From: Clostridia bacterium
Lineage (GTDB): Bacteria; Bacillota; Clostridia; Oscillospirales; CAG-382
Direction: 5' to 3'
Assembly (NCBI GenBank): GCA_017436675.1
Contig: JAFSCS010000014.1
Coordinates: 1-64,000 of the forward strand
Length of the DNA: 64,000 nucleotides
This document shows, in pieces, positions 13,375 to 53,724 of the stretch. The notes beneath the pieces were generated by a model. It worked only from the letters and a program-made list of their open reading frames with translations. It made no database searches and was not told the origin of the DNA. Numbering within the stretch: position 1 is the first letter of the stretch; every line of letters starts with the position of its first letter. The position numbers were made by a program, and so were the translations under genes.

Positions 13375-13581
13375 GTGAAGTTTTTGCCGTTGCAAAAGTG
13401 AAGTTGTGCTGTGCACAGTGATGTTGTTCGCCACGGGCTCACAGTGAAGTTAAGTTTGCCATAACTTCGCCGCGAGGCGAAACTTCACTCACGAAGTGAA
13501 CTTCACTATCGAAGATAACTTCACTTACCCGAAGGGCAAACTTAGTTTTAGCGTGTTCTCCGTTAAGGATAACACGCTAAA
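13375..13581 (-). repeat. GTGAAGTT/AACTTCAC hairpin array, copy 3
   Basis: Read on the minus strand it opens with a hairpin TTTAGCGTGTT/AACACGCTAAA, then ACTAAGTTTGCCC. Small hairpins separated by GTGAAG follow, then hairpins separated by AACTTCACT, up to 13375. The order matches the plus-strand arrays at 48457-48674 and 51059-51277. Stems change in compensating fashion: TTATCTTCGATA here stands where TTGCCTTCGGCA stands in the other two. Confidence 0.85.
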
Positions 13582-47130: not shown

Positions 47131-48489
47131 ATGAAAAAAATACTTTTAGATGAATTAATAACGATAAACGATATAAATTCCGACGGCGTAGGCGTCGGAA
47201 AGCGTGAGTGCGGAAAAACAATATTTGTTAAAGGTGCCGTCGTCGGCGATGTAGTAGAGGTTGGTATAATAAAGGAATCGAAAAACTATGACGTCGCGAC
47301 AGTGGAGAATATCGTCACCCCGTCCGAGTGGCGAGTGGATTGCGATTGCCCCGCATTTAACCGTTGCGGCGGCTGTGTCTACCGTAATATCAGCTATGAA
47401 AAGGAGCTCGAGCTGAAATATAATATCGTGAAAAACGCATTGAAGCGTATCGGAAAAACAAACGCACAGCTCGAGGGGATAACGAGTGACAGCGAGTTTG
47501 ACTATCGTAATAAGGTGCAGTACCCCATATCCACCAATAAAAACGAAGAACTCGTCTTCGGCTATTATGCAAACCATACCCACGAGGTCGTCCCGCATAC
47601 GAGCTGTAAGCTCCAAAGCGACGATTTTTCAAGAGCAGCATCTGCGTTCATCGAAAAAGCAAAGGAATTGGGTATGACCGCGTATGACGAAAAAACGGGA
47701 AAAGGACTTCTAAGGCACCTCGTTATGAGACGAACACACGATGGGAAAATGTCGTTTATGGTGGTCGTGAACGCCAAAAAGCTCGAAAATTGGAACGTTT
47801 TGCTCGACGCAGTAAGAAATAGCGGAGTGGATGTCGTGTCGTTTTCCGTCAACAGTAATATGAAAAATACCAACGTCATAGTGGGCGAGCGCGCCGAGGT
47901 GATGTGGGGAGAATGCGGTATCGTTGAAGAATTGTGCGGAAAAAGGTTCAGTATCTCGCCAATGTCTTTCTATCAGGTCAATCGAAAAATGACCGAAAAG
48001 CTCTATAATAAAGTAAAAGAGTATGCAAAGCTCGAAAAGGGAGAAACACTCCTCGACCTCTATTGCGGTATCGGAACGATAGGACTCTGTGTCGCAAATA
48101 ACGATAATACCCTCGTCGGAGTCGAAATAATTCCCGATGCAGTGAAAAACGCAGAGTATAACGCGGCACTCAACGGCAGAAACGAAGAGAATACAGTCTT
48201 TGTCTGCGGTGATGCATCAGTTGGTGTAAATACAGTAACGAAGAAATTCGGAAAATGTGACGTCATCATCGTCGATCCGCCAAGAAAAGGGCTCAGCGAG
48301 GAGGTCATCAACGAAACGCTCCGCGCACAGCCAAAGCGCATCGTCTATGTCTCGTGTAACCCGGCAACACTCGCAAGAGACGTCGAAATATACGAAAAAA
48401 ACGGCTATATCTGTGAATCAGCCTCCGCCTTCGACCTTTTCCCCCGAACAGGACACGTTGAAACTATTGTTTGTCTCAACAAACAATAG
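47131..48489 (+). CDS. rlmD: 23S rRNA (uracil-5-)-methyltransferase, RlmD/TrmA family
   Basis: 452 residues. N-terminal TRAM domain (about 5-62), an iron-sulfur cysteine set (CDCPAFNRCGGC), then the SAM domain with LLDLYCGIGTIGL, DPPRKGL and the nucleophile Cys in YVSCNPATLARD. Firmicutes often carry two paralogues (RlmCD types), so the exact uridine is open. The last 33 nt of the gene form one arm and part of the other of an 18-bp hairpin that opens hairpin array copy 1; the stop codon lies inside that hairpin. Confidence 0.93.
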   Translation: MKKILLDELITINDINSDGVGVGKRECGKTIFVKGAVVGDVVEVGIIKESKNYDVATVENIVTPSEWRVDCDCPAFNRCGGCVYRNISYEKELELKYNIVKNALKRIGKTNAQLEGITSDSEFDYRNKVQYPISTNKNEELVFGYYANHTHEVVPHTSCKLQSDDFSRAASAFIEKAKELGMTAYDEKTGKGLLRHLVMRRTHDGKMSFMVVVNAKKLENWNVLLDAVRNSGVDVVSFSVNSNMKNTNVIVGERAEVMWGECGIVEELCGKRFSISPMSFYQVNRKMTEKLYNKVKEYAKLEKGETLLDLYCGIGTIGLCVANNDNTLVGVEIIPDAVKNAEYNAALNGRNEENTVFVCGDASVGVNTVTKKFGKCDVIIVDPPRKGLSEEVINETLRAQPKRIVYVSCNPATLARDVEIYEKNGYICESASAFDLFPRTGHVETIVCLNKQ

Positions 48490-48674
48490 TTTCAACAACT
48501 AAGTTTGCCCTTGCGGGCAAGTGAAGTTGCCTTCGGCAGTGAAGTTCACTGCGTGAGTGAAGTTTCGCCTGACGGCGAAGTGGGGCAAACTTAACTTCAC
48601 TTTGCGACGAAGGAACAAAACTTCACTACGAACGAAGTGAGTAACTTCACTTTTGCGAAGCAAAAACTTCACCA
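48457..48674 (+). repeat. GTGAAGTT/AACTTCAC hairpin array, copy 1
   Basis: It opens with an 18-bp perfect hairpin (48457-48474/48479-48496, loop CTCA). Then comes AACTAAG, and small hairpins TTGCCCTTGCGGGCAA, TTGCCTTCGGCA, TTCACTGCGTGAGTGAA and TTTCGCCTGACGGCGAA separated by GTGAAG. After GTGGGGCAAACTTAACTTCACT the polarity flips to AACTTCACT-separated spacers, the last being TTTGCGAAGCAAA. It ends 22 nt before the four-helix-bundle gene, so it also serves as that gene's leader. Confidence 0.88.
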
Positions 48675-48696
48675 AACACCAAAAAGGAGAAAACCT

Positions 48697-49050
48697 ATGA
48701 AAGATTCCGAATTGCGCACAAGAGCAAAAGCTCTTGCCTTACATATAATCACCGTCTGCGATGAGGTAGATACTCGTAAGGGCAGAGGTGTACTTGTCAA
48801 TCAAATAGTTAGGAGCGCCACTTCCATCGGTGCAAACATTCACGAAGCAAACTATGCAGCAAGCAAAGCCGATTTTATAAACAAGCTCCATATCGCACTC
48901 AAAGAATGTGGCGAGACGGAATATTGGATTGAAATGCTCGTTGGTTCAAATGCGATAAGCGAACAAACTGCAAAAGACCTTTTGCAGGAGTGTGGTGTCA
49001 TTCGCCGTATGCTTGTGAAATCTATAACCACAGCAAAAGAAAATCAATAA
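48697..49050 (+). CDS. four-helix-bundle protein (S23/Avd-like family)
   Basis: 117 residues, four amphipathic helices. The core ALHIITVCDEV, GVLVNQIVRSATSIGANIHEA and FINKLHIALKECGETEYWIEML is the signature of the 23S rRNA intervening-sequence / Avd family. Such proteins form barrel pentamers with a basic surface that bind nucleic acid; in diversity-generating retroelements Avd partners a reverse transcriptase, but none is here. AAGGAG lies 8 nt before the ATG. The next gene begins 10 nt after its stop, so the two are an operon. AT-richer than the flanking chromosome. Confidence 0.9.
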   Translation: MKDSELRTRAKALALHIITVCDEVDTRKGRGVLVNQIVRSATSIGANIHEANYAASKADFINKLHIALKECGETEYWIEMLVGSNAISEQTAKDLLQECGVIRRMLVKSITTAKENQ

Positions 49051-49060
49051 GGAGAATAAA

Positions 49061-49960
49061 ATGAATCATAATTTTTCTATCAATCTGAAAAGACTCAGAG
49101 AGAATAATGGATTTACCCAAGAAACATTTGCTCAAGCCACGGGTTTAAAAAGAAACACAATTGCTTGCTACGAAACTGAGAGAAGAGAATGCGATTTTGA
49201 CACACTTCTTCTTTTTGCTAAAGTTTTAAATTGTTCGACTGATGATTTGTTAAAAGCACCCGAAGCAACCGATAAAATACTTACAATGGAAACAGCTTCT
49301 GCCACGAATATCAAAGGTGTAATTTATATTTTGACAAATCCATCTTTCAAAGAATATGTAAAAATTGGATATGCTGATGATGTTGAAAGACGTTTGCAAG
49401 AACTCAACCGAAGCGAGTGTGTCCCTTTCTCTTTCCGCATATATGCTACGTATGCCGTAACTTCAAGATTATCTGATAAGAATGTACATTCAATCATTGA
49501 CAGATTAAACCCCGATTTGCGCACTGTAGAAAATGTAAACGGAAAAAAGCGCGAACGCGAATTTTACGCTATGGAGCCAGAAAAAGCGTACAAAATTCTT
49601 GAAGCTATTGCAGAAATGCACGGATTTACCGACAGACTAAGGCTTTGGTGTCCTACAAGCGCAGAGCAAGTAGAGGAACGAGAAGCTCAAGATATTGAAA
49701 AGGAAAGCAGAACACGCTCTAATAATTTTACATTTTCAGAATGGCAGATTCCTGTTGGAGCAATTTTACAATATCGCCTTGATCCCTCCGTAACCTGTGA
49801 GGTTGTTGACGAAAGAAAAGTAAAGTTTAACGGCGAGACAATGTATTTAACTGGTGTTGCAAAAAAATGTCTTGGAAAAGATAACGGTGTTTGTGGTCCT
49901 GACTACTTCACATACAAGGGCGCAAAACTTTGGGATATCGATGGAAGAATTGGTAATTGA
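49061..49960 (+). CDS. XRE helix-turn-helix / GIY-YIG fusion protein
   Basis: 299 residues in three parts. Residues about 5-65 form an XRE-type helix-turn-helix (NGFTQETFAQATGLKRNTIACYE). Residues about 85-180 resemble a T5orf172/GIY-YIG nuclease: GVIYILTNPSF, then VKIGYADDVERRLQEL with the catalytic Arg. Residues about 225-295 (IPVGAILQYRLD, VKFNGETMYLTGVAKKCLG, GPDYFTYKGAKLWDI) resemble a RAMA/DUF4357-type DNA-reader domain. A self-regulated nuclease of a defence or mobile-element system is plausible. AGGAG overlaps the upstream stop. Base composition is AT-rich, suggesting transfer. Confidence 0.82.
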   Translation: MNHNFSINLKRLRENNGFTQETFAQATGLKRNTIACYETERRECDFDTLLLFAKVLNCSTDDLLKAPEATDKILTMETASATNIKGVIYILTNPSFKEYVKIGYADDVERRLQELNRSECVPFSFRIYATYAVTSRLSDKNVHSIIDRLNPDLRTVENVNGKKREREFYAMEPEKAYKILEAIAEMHGFTDRLRLWCPTSAEQVEEREAQDIEKESRTRSNNFTFSEWQIPVGAILQYRLDPSVTCEVVDERKVKFNGETMYLTGVAKKCLGKDNGVCGPDYFTYKGAKLWDIDGRIGN

Positions 49961-50007
49961 TATGTTTCCTATTACTAGCTAAAAACAATAATATTCCGTG
50001 TTTTTAG

Positions 50008-50075
50008 GGGACAAATGTTACTTTCGAGCGAAACTTGAAAGTTCGTTTTACAGCAGTTTAGTATAACATATCGAA
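50008..50075 (+). repeat. 68-bp cassette 5' element, copy A
   Basis: Begins GGGACAAATGT and ends CATATCGAA. It matches 51284-51351 at 55 of 68 positions with no gaps; GAAAGTTC and TTTTACAGCAGT are exact. It stands 26 nt before the start of the membrane-protein gene. Confidence 0.8.
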
Positions 50076-50101
50076 GTTCCTATAAAGGAGGAGTAAGGCC
50101 T

Positions 50102-51046
50102 ATGACAAGTACCAAAAGAATTTTATTTGTTGTTTTCATACTGATATTTTTCACTGGGATTGCTATCGGTTTGATAGGTAGATCAATATGCACACGAGAT
50201 AACGAAAACTATCAAAATGTGCAGGTAGAACTGTTTGCTCCGGACGAAATTGCTACTGTTTTACATGATGAAGATCTACATCAAATTTATGTATGCTATA
50301 ATGATGCCTCCTATGTAAATGTCTATTCTGAAGAAGGCCGATTTCTTTGGGCGGTATCGACACCTTATTTAAGAAATGTGTACTTTGAGCTTTCCAATAA
50401 TCAACTCATTGTATATAATTCTGCTGATGCTTACATTTATGATTCATCAAACGGAACTTTTGTTGAAAAGAAAAAATCAGATGATATTGATTTGAGTTAC
50501 GATTGGGAAAACGAATATACGGACGATTTCCAAAACGGCGAATTTTATTTTGATACATATCAAGTCTACAAGGCGCAAGAAGATGGATCACTGACTACAG
50601 TCGTTGCACGTCCGTGGTGGTACTGGGTATTTAATTTTGGTGTTTGCTGGTGTGTATCGTTTGTCGGTGCTATTGGAATGGGAACTATCATTTTTCTTGA
50701 AAAACGGAAAGAGTATCGAAAAACGCAGAAAGCTATACACCCTTCAAAGCATTCAATCGCAATAGAAAATCGCAAAGCAAGGTTTATTCTGAAATACTTT
50801 CGGATTACCTCGATCATTCATGTGGTTTATGCCGTTTTAAATATTGTTTTTGGAATTTTGATGGATGGCATTCTTTGCATAGGCATTTTGCCGCTTGCAA
50901 TTCATTTTATTATATCCAGCATCGTGCTTGATCATATTCGTCTCACAAAGGACGAACAAACGATAATCGATTATTGGGAGGTTTTTGAAATAAGTACTTT
51001 TATAATCGCATTCTTGTCTGTTATCGTCGCAGCAATGCTGGCATAA
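50102..51046 (+). CDS. membrane protein with outside sensor-like domain
   Basis: 314 residues. One helix at about 7-27, an extracytoplasmic domain (about 35-172) with short repeated strand patterns (IYVCYNDASYVNVYSEEGRFLWAV, LIVYNSADAYIYDSSNG) that resemble two or three beta-propeller blades. A helix follows at about 178-200, then a basic cytoplasmic loop and three C-terminal helices (about 240-312). I do not recognise a family. GGAGG precedes the ATG. It is bracketed by the 68-bp element and the 13-bp AAATATACCTTTT motif and is AT-rich, so it looks like a transferred cassette gene. Confidence 0.75.
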   Translation: MTSTKRILFVVFILIFFTGIAIGLIGRSICTRDNENYQNVQVELFAPDEIATVLHDEDLHQIYVCYNDASYVNVYSEEGRFLWAVSTPYLRNVYFELSNNQLIVYNSADAYIYDSSNGTFVEKKKSDDIDLSYDWENEYTDDFQNGEFYFDTYQVYKAQEDGSLTTVVARPWWYWVFNFGVCWCVSFVGAIGMGTIIFLEKRKEYRKTQKAIHPSKHSIAIENRKARFILKYFRITSIIHVVYAVLNIVFGILMDGILCIGILPLAIHFIISSIVLDHIRLTKDEQTIIDYWEVFEISTFIIAFLSVIVAAMLA

Positions 51047-51058
51047 AATATACCTTTT
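51046..51058 (+). repeat. 13-bp cassette 3' motif, copy A
   Basis: AAATATACCTTTT begins at the last base of the membrane-protein stop codon. The identical 13-mer stands 5 nt after the stop of the next island gene (51708-51720). Confidence 0.65.
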
Positions 51059-51277
51059 CGTCGAGACTGTCGTGTGTCTCACACGACGACTCGACAACTA
51101 AGTTTGCCCTTGCGGGCAAGTGAAGTTGCCTTCGGCAGTGAAGTTCACTGTGTGAGTGAAGTTTCGCCTGACGGCGAAGTGGGGCGAACTTAACTTCACT
51201 TTGCGACGAAGGAACAAAACTTCACTGTGAGCGAAGCGAACAACTTCACTACGAGCGAGAGCGAGTAACTTCACCAA
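51059..51277 (+). repeat. GTGAAGTT/AACTTCAC hairpin array, copy 2
   Basis: It opens with an imperfect hairpin (GTCGAG...GTCGTGTG/CACACGAC..CTCGAC, about 51060-51085), then AACTAAGTTTGCCC and the same order of elements as copy 1, nearly identical over about 125 bp. Later AACTTCACT-separated spacers differ: GTGAGCGAAGCGAAC and ACGAGCGAGAGCGAGT. It ends 6 nt before the second 68-bp element. Together with 51278-51361 it fills the 315-nt gap between the genes. Confidence 0.88.
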
Positions 51278-51283
51278 AAGTCA

Positions 51284-51351
51284 GGGACAAATGTGAGTTT
51301 TGAACAAAGCTCGAAAGTTCATTTTACAGCAGTAATGGTTAACATATCGAA
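51284..51351 (+). repeat. 68-bp cassette 5' element, copy B
   Basis: 81 percent identical to 50008-50075 without gaps. It directly follows array copy 2 and ends 10 nt before the next start, where its final CGAA runs into the AAAGGAG ribosome site. Confidence 0.8.
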
Positions 51352-51361
51352 AGGAGATAAA

Positions 51362-51703
51362 ATGATTTTATATCGACCCGTAGGAGAGAAAGAAAAGGAG
51401 TTAATCGAAGAAAGCGGTTACACAAAATTTCCACCTAGACTTGATTGGCAACCAATTTTTTATCCCGTTTTGAATCAACGCTATGCCGAAGAAATAGCAA
51501 AAAAATGGAACACGAAAGATTCTGACTCGGGCTACAAGGGATATGTAACTCGATTTGAAGTTGATGATGATTATATTTCTGCATATGAGACGCAAACCGT
51601 TGGAGCCTCTTATCATCAAGAACTTTGGATACCTGCAGAAGAGCTTGAAAATTTCAACAGTCATATTATCGGGAAAATTGAAATAGTCAAGATTCTTTTG
51701 TAA
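51362..51703 (+). CDS. small conserved protein of the 'ADP-ribosylation/crystallin J1' annotation group
   Basis: 113 residues, soluble. YRPVGEKEKELI, FPPRLDWQPIFYPVLN, VTRFEVDDDY, and QTVGASYHQELWIPAEELENFN are the conserved stretches of a family that databases label ADP-ribosylation/crystallin J1. That label is old and no activity is shown to my knowledge. The AAAGGAG 6 nt upstream sets the start. The gene lies between copy B of the 68-bp element and copy B of the 13-bp motif, the same layout as the membrane-protein cassette. Confidence 0.82.
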   Translation: MILYRPVGEKEKELIEESGYTKFPPRLDWQPIFYPVLNQRYAEEIAKKWNTKDSDSGYKGYVTRFEVDDDYISAYETQTVGASYHQELWIPAEELENFNSHIIGKIEIVKILL

Positions 51704-51707
51704 CTCC

Positions 51708-51720
51708 AAATATACCTTTT
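51708..51720 (+). repeat. 13-bp cassette 3' motif, copy B
   Basis: AAATATACCTTTT, identical to 51046-51058. It marks the right edge of the accessory island; typical chromosomal composition resumes beyond it. Confidence 0.65.
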
Positions 51721-51825
51721 GACCTTATGCCCCACATTGGAAGCGTCGTTTATCTGACGCGCTCAGCCAAAGCGACGTGATATAGAACGCCGTTGATTCC
51801 GCGTTAGCGGACAAAGGAGATTATT

Positions 51826-53724
51826 ATGAACACAAACGAAATCTTCCAAAAAAGCAGTTGGATCTATGCCGATTGCACAGAGTCCGACGACCAATATACA
51901 GAATATATCGCTACGATAAATAAACCGACCGATGAAGCAACGCTCTATCTCTCGTGCGATACCGACTATACGGTTTTTATAAACGGAAGCTATGTTGCGT
52001 CGAACCAATACGGTGACTTCGAGCATTATAAAATATACGACACGATAAACGTCACTCCGTTTCTTCGCGAGCCCGTGAACGAAATGAAAATATTGCTCTA
52101 TTATTGCGGTGTCAATACCCAACGCTACAGACGAGCGCAGGCGGGGCTTATTTATGAGATCACCGAAAACGGTAAGACTATTGCATCGAGCGGCAAAAAT
52201 ACGCTCTCGCGCCTAAGTCCGACGTATATTAGCGGCAGAAAGGTGTTCGTTAGCACACAGCTCGGGTTTACGTTCGCCTATGATTCCACAAAGGAGAACG
52301 AGGACGGATACCGCAAGTCGAAGATCGTCGAAAAGACCGTAAATTTCTTCCCGCGCCCGATAGAAAAGCAAAAGGTGCTCCCGCCAAAAGCAATGAAGTC
52401 GGTGAAAATGATAGCTGAAAACACGTATCTGATCGACCTCGGAGAAGAGACCGTCGGCTTTTGCAAGCTGCACCTATATTCCAATACCGCCCAAAAGCTG
52501 AAAATAGCATACGGCGAAAGCCTCGATAACGGCAGAGTGCGTGAAAAAATACATAACAGAAATTTCAGTGTCGAATATATCGCGAAGGAAGGCGAAAACG
52601 ACTTTTGCGACTATATGCTCCGCCTCAGCGCAAGATACCTCGAGCTGAGAGCGGAAAGTCCGATAGAGATAAAATATATAGGTATAGTCCCCCAAATTTT
52701 TGAAACAAAAACGGTCGAAAAAATAATAGATAATAAGCTTGATAGAGATATATACGATATCTGTGTCAATACGCTGAAGCTCTGTATGATGGAGCACTAC
52801 GTCGATACACCTTGGCGTGAGCAGTGTCTCTATGCGTTCGATTCGCGTAACCAAATGCTTTGCGGATACCTTGCGTTCGAAAACGGCAACCGTGACTATG
52901 CAAGAGCGAACCTGAAGCTCATCGGCGAGGATAAGCGTGACGACGGACTTCTTTCGATATGTTATCCTTGCGGAACGGAGCTTGCGATCCCCTCGTTTTC
53001 GCTCTACTATATCTTGGCAATGAGCGAATATGCAAGATATACGGGTGATGGCACGCTCGTGAACGAATATAAAGAGAAAATGGAGTCTGTGCTCGACGAG
53101 TTTTTGAAAAATACGAAAAACGGACTCGTCGCAAAATTCTCGGGAAATGAGATGTGGAACTTCTACGATTGGTCGGAGCATCTCGAGGGAAGTCTGCACA
53201 AAAGCGAAGCAGCGGAGTGTGACCTCGTGATAAATTGCCTTTTCGTGATGGCGCTCGACGCATTCGCGGAAATGTGCGGAAACGATAAATATAAAAATAC
53301 CGCAGATGAAATAAGACGCCGCATCCCCGAGACGTTTGCGGACGATAGCGGAATGCTGACGCTACATAAAGGAAAACGTGAATATACGGCTCTCGGCAAC
53401 TCGCTTGCCGTGCTTTGCGGTGCAGTCGGCGGCGAGCACGCGAAAGCGGTGTGTGACCATATCGTAAAAGGCAACACGACACCGTCGTCGCTCAGTATGA
53501 ACGTCTGGAAATACGATGCGCTGATGAAAACGGACGAGGAAAAATATCGCGAATATATCTTGACGGAAATAAGAAATAGTTATAAAATAATGCTTGAAAG
53601 CGGATCAACAACAGTGTGGGAAACGCTCGACGGTTCGAAAGCGTTCGGAAACGCAGGCAGCCTTTGCCACGGCTGGAGCGCCGTGCCGATATACGTGTAC
53701 CATAGATTAGGGATAGTGAGGTAG
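51826..53724 (+). CDS. GH78-like (alpha-L-rhamnosidase family) enzyme
   Basis: 632 residues. An N-terminal beta-sandwich (about 1-130; LYLSCDTDYTVFINGSY) resembles the carbohydrate-binding domain of GH78, followed by another beta domain and an alpha6/alpha6 barrel from about 300. DTPWREQCLYAFDSRNQM holds the acidic residues of the GH78 active site, and SLCHGWSAVPIYVYHRLG is the conserved end of the barrel. No signal peptide, so cytoplasmic. At 632 residues it is shorter than many rhamnosidases. The next gene starts 4 nt downstream. Confidence 0.85.
   Translation: MNTNEIFQKSSWIYADCTESDDQYTEYIATINKPTDEATLYLSCDTDYTVFINGSYVASNQYGDFEHYKIYDTINVTPFLREPVNEMKILLYYCGVNTQRYRRAQAGLIYEITENGKTIASSGKNTLSRLSPTYISGRKVFVSTQLGFTFAYDSTKENEDGYRKSKIVEKTVNFFPRPIEKQKVLPPKAMKSVKMIAENTYLIDLGEETVGFCKLHLYSNTAQKLKIAYGESLDNGRVREKIHNRNFSVEYIAKEGENDFCDYMLRLSARYLELRAESPIEIKYIGIVPQIFETKTVEKIIDNKLDRDIYDICVNTLKLCMMEHYVDTPWREQCLYAFDSRNQMLCGYLAFENGNRDYARANLKLIGEDKRDDGLLSICYPCGTELAIPSFSLYYILAMSEYARYTGDGTLVNEYKEKMESVLDEFLKNTKNGLVAKFSGNEMWNFYDWSEHLEGSLHKSEAAECDLVINCLFVMALDAFAEMCGNDKYKNTADEIRRRIPETFADDSGMLTLHKGKREYTALGNSLAVLCGAVGGEHAKAVCDHIVKGNTTPSSLSMNVWKYDALMKTDEEKYREYILTEIRNSYKIMLESGSTTVWETLDGSKAFGNAGSLCHGWSAVPIYVYHRLGIVR

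Follow-up and report, generated by a model that had tools for sequence, protein, structure and literature searches.

A possible gene-cassette array at the 3' end of rlmD in a Clostridia genome

Why should two unrelated genes lie between the same borders? The question is raised by an island downstream of rlmD in a 64,000-nucleotide stretch of a Clostridia genome (contig JAFSCS010000014.1, forward strand; hereafter the window). A sequence-only reading had described the island as AT-richer than its surroundings, with two unrelated genes each enclosed by a 68-bp element at the start and a 13-mer at the stop, and had proposed cassette exchange with no integrase in view.

Borders and cargo in the window

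47131..48489, + strand: rlmD, 23S rRNA U1939 methyltransferase (Pfam tRNA_U5-meth_tr, 4.1e-24); its 3' end anchors the island
49061..49960, + strand: HTH + T5orf172 gene between joint 1 and cassette 1 (PF10544 1.4e-13, PF01381 4.7e-11)
50008..51058, + strand: cassette 1 (leader, 314-aa ORF, 13-mer), the exchanged unit; block edges 50008/50009 and 51058 in other genomes
50008..50075, + strand: leader 1, 68 bp with a short hairpin; 39 distinct leader copies overall
50102..51046, + strand: 314-aa protein, cargo 1, without Pfam match; 10 relatives
51039..51086, + strand: junction site 1, the 13-mer 51046-51058 plus an rlmD-end copy from 51059 (nhmmer 22.0 bits, E 3.3e-5)
51284..51720, + strand: cassette 2 (leader 2, 113-aa ORF, 13-mer), with borders taken from the repeat pairs of the window
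51362..51703, + strand: 113-aa protein, cargo 2, without Pfam match
51708..51761, + strand: junction site 2 (nhmmer 31.9 bits, E 2.8e-8; also matched in the whole-genome search, E 1.2e-8)
51826..53724, + strand: GH78-like gene (PF17389 1.4e-23)

The descriptive part of the earlier reading held. The island has a GC content of 0.36-0.40 against 0.45-0.47 in the flanks, and the two 68-bp elements (50008-50075 and 51284-51351), here called leaders, are 81% identical and are the only copies in the window's own genome (E 2.3e-12). The 13-mer AAATATACCTTTT is exact at 51046-51058 and 51708-51720; with two matches in the window and none in 100 shuffles, a chance origin was rejected. The two enclosed proteins are mutually unrelated and neither has a Pfam match. 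That cargo 1 is a membrane protein remains the view of the earlier reading alone and was not computed here. Shared borders arising from homology of the two cargo genes were also rejected, since the proteins are unrelated and many other ORFs are enclosed by the same borders.

The 13-mers turned out to form the left portion of a longer junction site, whose final stretch resembles the rlmD 3' end. In the site model, which was built without the window's own copies for the window scores, the right part matches both junctions and rlmD ends, indicating that the 3' end of the gene is duplicated at the junctions. The site search scored just two candidates per genome, so that its site counts are lower bounds. 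The leaders have a mean column identity of 87% and share a hairpin with a 7-bp stem (96.9% paired across 32 sequences). The hairpin is retained but its covariation does not exceed that of shuffles, and the leader was rejected as a covarying RNA.

The island start given by the earlier reading, 48457, falls within the final codons of rlmD. At the other end, the GH78-like gene could be either the last cargo or the first backbone gene, a choice we leave undecided. In the further loci that were searched (L084 upward), tblastn at 1e-8 gave no match to the HTH + T5orf172 gene.

Exchange of cassettes between genomes

The 314-aa cargo is present in nine other cassette loci, all from Clostridia MAGs of the ruminant gut. 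The left flank is visible in 7 of them, and in 6 of these 7 DNA similarity to the window sets in at 50008/50009, the start of the 68-bp element. The right flank is likewise visible in 7, and in 6 of these the similarity ends at 51058, the last base of the 13-mer. Across six genome pairs the cassette is 94.9-96.3% identical, against 60.3-63.5% for the rlmD genes, and the neighbours of the cargo differ in every locus. Cargo 2 was detected in L204, behind rlmD (79% aa), and in L205, close to the end of a contig (84% aa), there without similarity over the leader.

Joints move as well. In L245 the joint types around the 314-aa cargo are swapped relative to the window, whose positions 51059-51351 match L245 8683-8974 at 84.8%. 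Joints and cargo are exchanged independently of each other.

Beyond this cargo, 16 of 394 genomes of the order contain the leader. In many genomes, different cargo at rlmD is likewise enclosed by leader and junction site, in ordered leader-ORF-site repeats of up to six single-ORF cassettes in a row (six in L195); the longest array belongs to genome G254. Wherever the upstream side of an island is visible, rlmD lies immediately upstream (22/22). We sorted 40 cargo ORFs, chosen by position rules and including some doubtful short ones, into 31 families, 8 of which are common to two or three islands. Weak leader matches in G766, with no rlmD nearby, were discarded as chance.

These comparisons show that the island is a mosaic of cargo modules and joint modules. 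The cargo module consists of the 68-bp leader, a ribosome-binding site, one ORF and the 13-mer, and passes as a unit between species of different families. The joint module consists of a copy of the rlmD 3' end, usually with a palindrome, and often a Gut-1-type array with or without a four-helix-bundle gene. That cargo is exchanged as cassettes is very likely. The sequence-only reading is supported on this point: it had proposed checking whether cargo is gained, lost or swapped precisely at the borders, and in the nine other loci the similarity to the window starts and stops at these borders while the neighbours differ. Neither outcome that it held would refute exchange was met, as content is not stable and the border matches do not lie within larger homologous genes.

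The data contained no excision circle, no empty site and no pair of strains. No cassette copy was found in phage records, plasmid records or viral contigs, and a vehicle of these kinds was rejected. Among the Pfam matches of 48 cargo proteins there were no ICE or phage structural families, no conjugation or mobilisation genes and no recombinase families. A defence island was likewise rejected: PADLOC matched 12 families, each in one of the 48 members, nearly all of them DNA methyltransferases.

Two rival explanations bear on these data. In the first, cargo is shuffled by homologous recombination among the numerous borders that resemble one another (leader, junction site, rlmD end, arrays), with no dedicated enzyme. 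The high leader identity, the repetition of joints and leaders within one island, the coincidence of exchange edges with shared repeats and the independent swapping of joints and cargo speak for it. Against it, imperfect identity over 68 bp makes a short substrate, the edges are found at the leader's outer end and not inside it, and it gives no account of arrays always starting at rlmD. We consider it unlikely. In the second, ICEs, IMEs or prophages inserted at rlmD time and again, and every insertion left an att copy and a few cargo genes. The gene, also named rumA, is a known insertion hotspot (PMC4701971; PMC12785378) and some junctions are degenerate, as at 51742-51825; however, the units are regular, hold one ORF each and share leader and site, intact units are found again in different families, and the cargo lacks the structural families noted above. 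Such debris is less likely still than homologous recombination.

Joints, hairpin arrays and the rlmD end

48457..48496, + strand: perfect palindrome with 18-bp arms, comprising the final rlmD codons and the joint start; also folded
48496..48675, + strand: hairpin array 1, Gut-1 RNA at 48496-48568 (RF01706, 52 bits) plus a second half with the reverse-complement keyword AACTTCAC
48697..49050, + strand: four-helix-bundle (IVP/S23-like) gene of joint 1 (PF05635 5.9e-25)
51059..51283, + strand: joint 2, an rlmD-end copy with palindrome plus Gut-1 hairpin array 2 (RF01706 51 bits at 51095-51167; z -4.75)
51742..51825, + strand: shortened remnant of a third joint of the GTGATATA-keyword type, before the GH78-like gene (51742-51791 matches the L157 and L210 joints at 86-88%)

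The two 160-bp hairpin arrays (48492-48651 and 51091-51250) are 94% identical, and both exceed the Rfam gathering score of 50 bits for RF01706 Gut-1. Array 1 with the palindrome (48457-48675) has a folding z of -9.2. The Rfam model spans just the first half of a GTGAAGTT-keyword array. Gut-1, recorded from the human gut only (PMC2864571), is one keyword of a wider hairpin-array family, of which several keyword types stand at cassette joints and before four-helix-bundle genes. In other islands, too, the four-helix-bundle gene lies directly 3' of such arrays.

A hairpin of the rlmD-end kind was found at 21 of 24 array-bearing rlmD-family 3' ends, against 7 of 38 others. These counts are kept as computed: L053 and L188 are apparent false-positive arrays, and arrays were apparently missed in L072 and L075.

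Could the arrays be the recombination sites, one of the two roles (recombination or regulatory) that the sequence-only reading had suggested? This was not shown. Many cassettes are joined without an array, so arrays are not required at every junction, and we rejected them as obligatory sites. It is also very unlikely that the array and the four-helix-bundle gene drive the exchange as an IVS-like selfish element, inserting behind hairpins and taking cargo with it. The pair is often the first unit after rlmD and is also found elsewhere behind tRNA terminators; against this, many joints lack both parts, and the four-helix-bundle family is not known to have a catalytic role.

Candidate enzymes and known systems

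In the mechanism that we propose, cassettes would enter and exit by site-specific recombination at the rlmD-like core (GTCGAGA-type) of each junction, an inference towards which the evidence leans slightly. Each insertion would duplicate the rlmD end, by analogy with SCC elements at rlmH. The sharp left edge coincides with the leader start and not with the rlmD-like core; therefore at least one further exchange point is needed. Cassettes would lack promoters of their own and be transcribed from rlmD; the sole check was a consensus promoter scan, with 16 promoter-like sites against 10.3 expected. The rlmD-end hairpin and array would shape the rlmD transcript rather than catalyse exchange. Taken as a whole, an rlmD-anchored cassette array working in this way is as likely to be wrong as right.

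The enzyme is unproven. With less assurance, we infer an rlmD(rumA)-targeting large serine integrase that passing integrative elements would provide in trans; the balance tips slightly against it. Serine integrases are known to target rumA and swap its C-terminus, and in ICEs/IMEs inserted there attR is located in the integrase gene (PMC4701971). In G337 the site holds the end of a serine integrase gene, after which come a leader, a cargo gene and a further site. Elsewhere in the order, integrases of this kind likewise end in VETV-like rlmD codons. However, G337 is the only case of an integrase adjoining a cassette, the contig ends there, and that integrase may just belong to an ICE using the same target. 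PF07508 recombinases were found elsewhere in 10 of the 16 cassette genomes and not found in six, including G254 and G353. The window's own genome yielded no large serine integrase of this kind.

Another site-specific recombinase (Xer-like or other tyrosine recombinase), perhaps acting on folded single strands as in integrons, is also unlikely. Tyrosine-recombinase matches occur in 16/16 cassette genomes, and a strong hairpin stands at the anchor and many junctions. Against this, no integron integrase (TIGR02249) exceeded the cut-off in any of the 16 genomes, some of them incomplete, and all 14 control genomes have the weak matches too. Many junctions lack a hairpin, and neither a dif-like site nor, in the absence of an attC model, an attC site was identified.

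Integrons (IntI, attI, attC) resemble the rlmD islands in their tandem single-ORF arrays with shared junction sites, swapped between species. They differ in that the islands are anchored at the rlmD 3' end, carry an rlmD-end copy at the junction and lack IntI over the cut-off; integron identity is not supported, although the criterion of a single-ORF cassette array is met. SCCmec and the Enterococcus cassette chromosome at rlmH likewise have a conserved methyltransferase gene as their target, again at its 3' end, with end repeats at junctions and variable cargo (PMC6222049). They span tens of kb with ccr genes, whereas the window units are about 0.4-1.1 kb with one gene each and no recombinase appears among the scanned cargo. 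Of the SCC-type criteria, 3'-end duplication is met, and the rlmH anchor and internal ccr serine recombinase are not. ICEs/IMEs in rumA use the same gene end, and an arrangement resembling their attR-in-integrase one is seen in G337 and relatives, but they are single large elements with integrase and conjugation genes and do not form single-gene arrays. Acinetobacter pdif (Xer) modules are small, flanked by recombination sites and without their own integrase; they differ in being plasmid-borne with dif-like sites, a comparison that was not tested.

In the open-licence PMC literature searched, neither rlmD cassettes nor Gut-1 in such a context were described; absence in print is not established. 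A bolder reading is possible, though less likely than not: a second bacterial gene-cassette system, independent of integrons, in which single-gene cassettes are captured in a chromosomal array at rlmD and swapped across families and structured joints (palindromic rlmD end plus Gut-1-type arrays with switchable keywords) act as folded recombination and/or expression elements. There are no Gut-1 expression data; if true, this would be the first role for Gut-1 RNA, here one of several keyword types at joints. Integrons are the textbook single-gene collecting device, and an rlmD array in gut Clostridia would show a second route. It would also tie the orphan Gut-1 RNA and the orphan four-helix-bundle family to cassette arrays, and give a fixed place to seek recently moved genes of unknown function. 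As the cassette borders are defined to the base, the idea is testable at once.

Edges of the exchanged unit

The window lies on contig C14 of its own genome, a 1.54-Mb assembly that is 54% complete. The sequence-only reading had claimed a 68-bp pair, two 13-mers, hairpin arrays and an AT-rich composition for the island between rlmD and the GH78-like gene, and all four held. The main features are:

47131-48489, + strand: rlmD
50008-50075: 68-bp leader, start of cassette 1 (50008-51058, 314-aa cargo)
51046-51058: 13-mer, end of cassette 1
51284-51351: 68-bp leader, start of cassette 2 (51284-51720, 113-aa cargo)
51708-51720: 13-mer, end of cassette 2
51826-53724, + strand: GH78-like gene

The own genome holds just two copies of the 68-bp sequence, both in the island. 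With the 314-aa cargo as query against a one-genome-per-species collection, we found ten loci, all in MAGs titled Clostridia or Oscillospiraceae bacterium and, where a source is stated, from sheep, goat or roe-deer gut. The leader and/or the junction site (the 13-mer with a copy of the rlmD end) stands at the expected place in nine of them; the tenth relative (L252, 51% identical) lies at another location without leader or site. Six of the nine cassette loci carry rlmD upstream (L245, L247, L248, L250, L251, L253), and the other three begin at contig ends.

In BLASTN comparisons with the window, the high-identity block starts at 50008 or 50009 in these six loci and at 50022 in L249, and it ends at 51058 in L246, L247, L248, L249, L250 and L254; in L245 it extends to 51278 because the joint (the module between cargos) that follows there is a Gut-1 array too. 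The proposed cassette borders, a 68-bp start and a 13-mer end, therefore held as the edges of an exchanged unit. Across the six rlmD-bearing loci, identity to the window is 94.9-96.3% for cassette DNA and 60.3-63.5% for rlmD; L248 is apparently contig C17 of G353, which is listed in a different family of the order. The unit, its borders and its exchange between distant species are shown, and we hold strongly that the island genes exchange as cassettes.

The cargo is diverse: BLASTP grouped 40 position-selected ORFs into 31 families, 8 of which occur in two or three islands. A Pfam scan of 48 cargo proteins yielded 23 families, all but one of which were hit by a single protein. The hits add up to 24, which leaves at least 24 of the 48 proteins without any match. 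The 113-aa cargo recurs at 84% identity in L205 and 79% in L204, where DNA similarity to the window begins only at the last bases of the leader, so leader-less units exist.

rlmD as the anchor of the islands

Of 394 genomes in the order, 16 carry the leader (at 22 places) and 30 have a junction-site match at E <= 0.01, a count that scores only two candidates per genome and includes a weak tail. Both window junctions were recovered by a site model built on 21 seeds, all from outside the window. The leader search of the class sample returned 3 of 391 genomes: the own genome, G499 from another order, and G766, whose match is probably chance. The G499 leader lies ~100 bases behind the rlmD stop, as in other islands. 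To judge by sequence alone, the first cargo behind rlmD there (L287:1585-2427) resembles a restriction endonuclease, with what looks to be a cytosine methylase next to it.

The anchor itself is shown: rlmD stands directly upstream in 22 of 22 islands with a visible upstream side (20 of 20, loci over the same region taken once, plus G249 and G499). Ten more pieces, beginning within about 1.1 kb of the upstream contig end, could not be judged and are outside this count; one of them, G337, has a serine recombinase gene in place of rlmD. By strand, the order is rlmD, (array and four-helix-bundle gene), leader, ORF, site, leader, ORF, site, and G254 packs six cassettes into about 4.3 kb. No description of an rlmD cassette system was found in the open-licence PMC literature searched. 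Expression from rlmD is inferred.

Proposed recombination site and candidate enzyme

The duplication of a gene 3' end in the junction sites indicates site-specific integration at rlmD, and we favour, with moderate confidence, recombination at an rlmD-like core site. rlmD (rumA) is a known serine-integrase target, with attR within the integrase's own gene (PMC4701971), and it flanks prophages (PMC12785378). In G337 the integrase gene ends in a site, followed by leader, ORF and site. Relatives of this integrase occur in 33 of 394 genomes of the order at E <= 1e-30, and at least 9 end in rlmD-like codons (30 loci; 12 without a usable frame excluded). Such C-termini, which are likely the attR of elements in rlmD, were seen in large serine integrases of the order at L216, L218, L232-L235, L238, L241 and L244. 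Separately, the G016 rlmD (L097) has a long C-terminal extension, likely brought by an rlmD-targeting integrative element.

A serine integrase as the enzyme is held only weakly, because no PF07508 protein was found in 6 of the 16 cassette genomes, including that with the longest array; integron integrases were not found in these 16 either. That recombination is active, and by which enzyme, is inferred.

Joints, hairpin arrays and the Gut-1 family

A copy of the rlmD 3' end (codons for V-E-[ST]-V-V-C-L) follows each 13-mer, its right arm often self-complementary. The spacer behind it is a Gut-1 array, another keyword array, an array with a four-helix-bundle (4HB) gene, an A-rich spacer, or absent. 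The modular order is shown. The window reads joint (Gut-1, 4HB and HTH gene), cargo 314, joint (Gut-1), cargo 113, remnant joint, GH78; L245 reads joint (Gut-1), cargo 314, joint (Gut-1 and 4HB), next cargo. As the joint types around cargo 314 differ, joints and cargo are exchanged independently.

Both window arrays, whose first half pairs largely with the second, beat all 200 shuffles in folding (z -9.2 and -4.75), and the first half of each is Gut-1 RNA (Rfam RF01706; 52 and 51 bits, cut-off 50). The array is dispersed: the own genome has 14 scored matches, and 16 of 60 relatives have matches too. Among 62 distinct rlmD-family 3' ends, 24 have a keyword array, and in 21 of these the last codons form a hairpin (MFE <= -12 kcal/mol over 48 nt); of the 38 ends without an array, 7 do (MFE, one-sided Mann-Whitney p 3.4e-9, indicative only, as the sequences are related). 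Any role of the arrays is inferred.

Gut-1 belongs to a wider hairpin-array family, in which the first half carries a 6-8-nt array-specific keyword that recurs as its reverse complement in the second half; keywords include GTGAAGTT, TGAATTG, TCGATATG, GTGATATT, ATGATGT, AATGAAG, GATGAAAT and GCGATATA. Such arrays directly precede four-helix-bundle (PF05635) genes at L113, L114, L117, L118, L122-L125, L127-L130, L132 and L133, several of them immediately downstream of tRNA genes and a terminator-like hairpin. PF05635 genes of classical IVP type (L104-L112, L116, L119-L121, L126) mostly have heptamer-like short direct repeats (e.g. GAGAAATTAGAAATGAG) just upstream, not hairpin arrays.

Gut-1 copies away from rlmD lie on C9, C20, C30, C35, C4, C41, C26 and C34 of the own genome and at 13440-13547 of the window. 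These dispersed copies have another hairpin in front (stem CGTGTT/AACACG around TCCTTAACGGAGA or similar), and several are found at contig ends, where near-identical repeats would be expected to lie. L093 (G009) and L101 (G036) carry a tandem rlmD end, palindrome and array with no cargo gene between copies. Some joint spacers, as in L155 and L157, contain a long MITE-like inverted repeat (CCGTAGGGGCGA... / ...TCGCCCCTACG).
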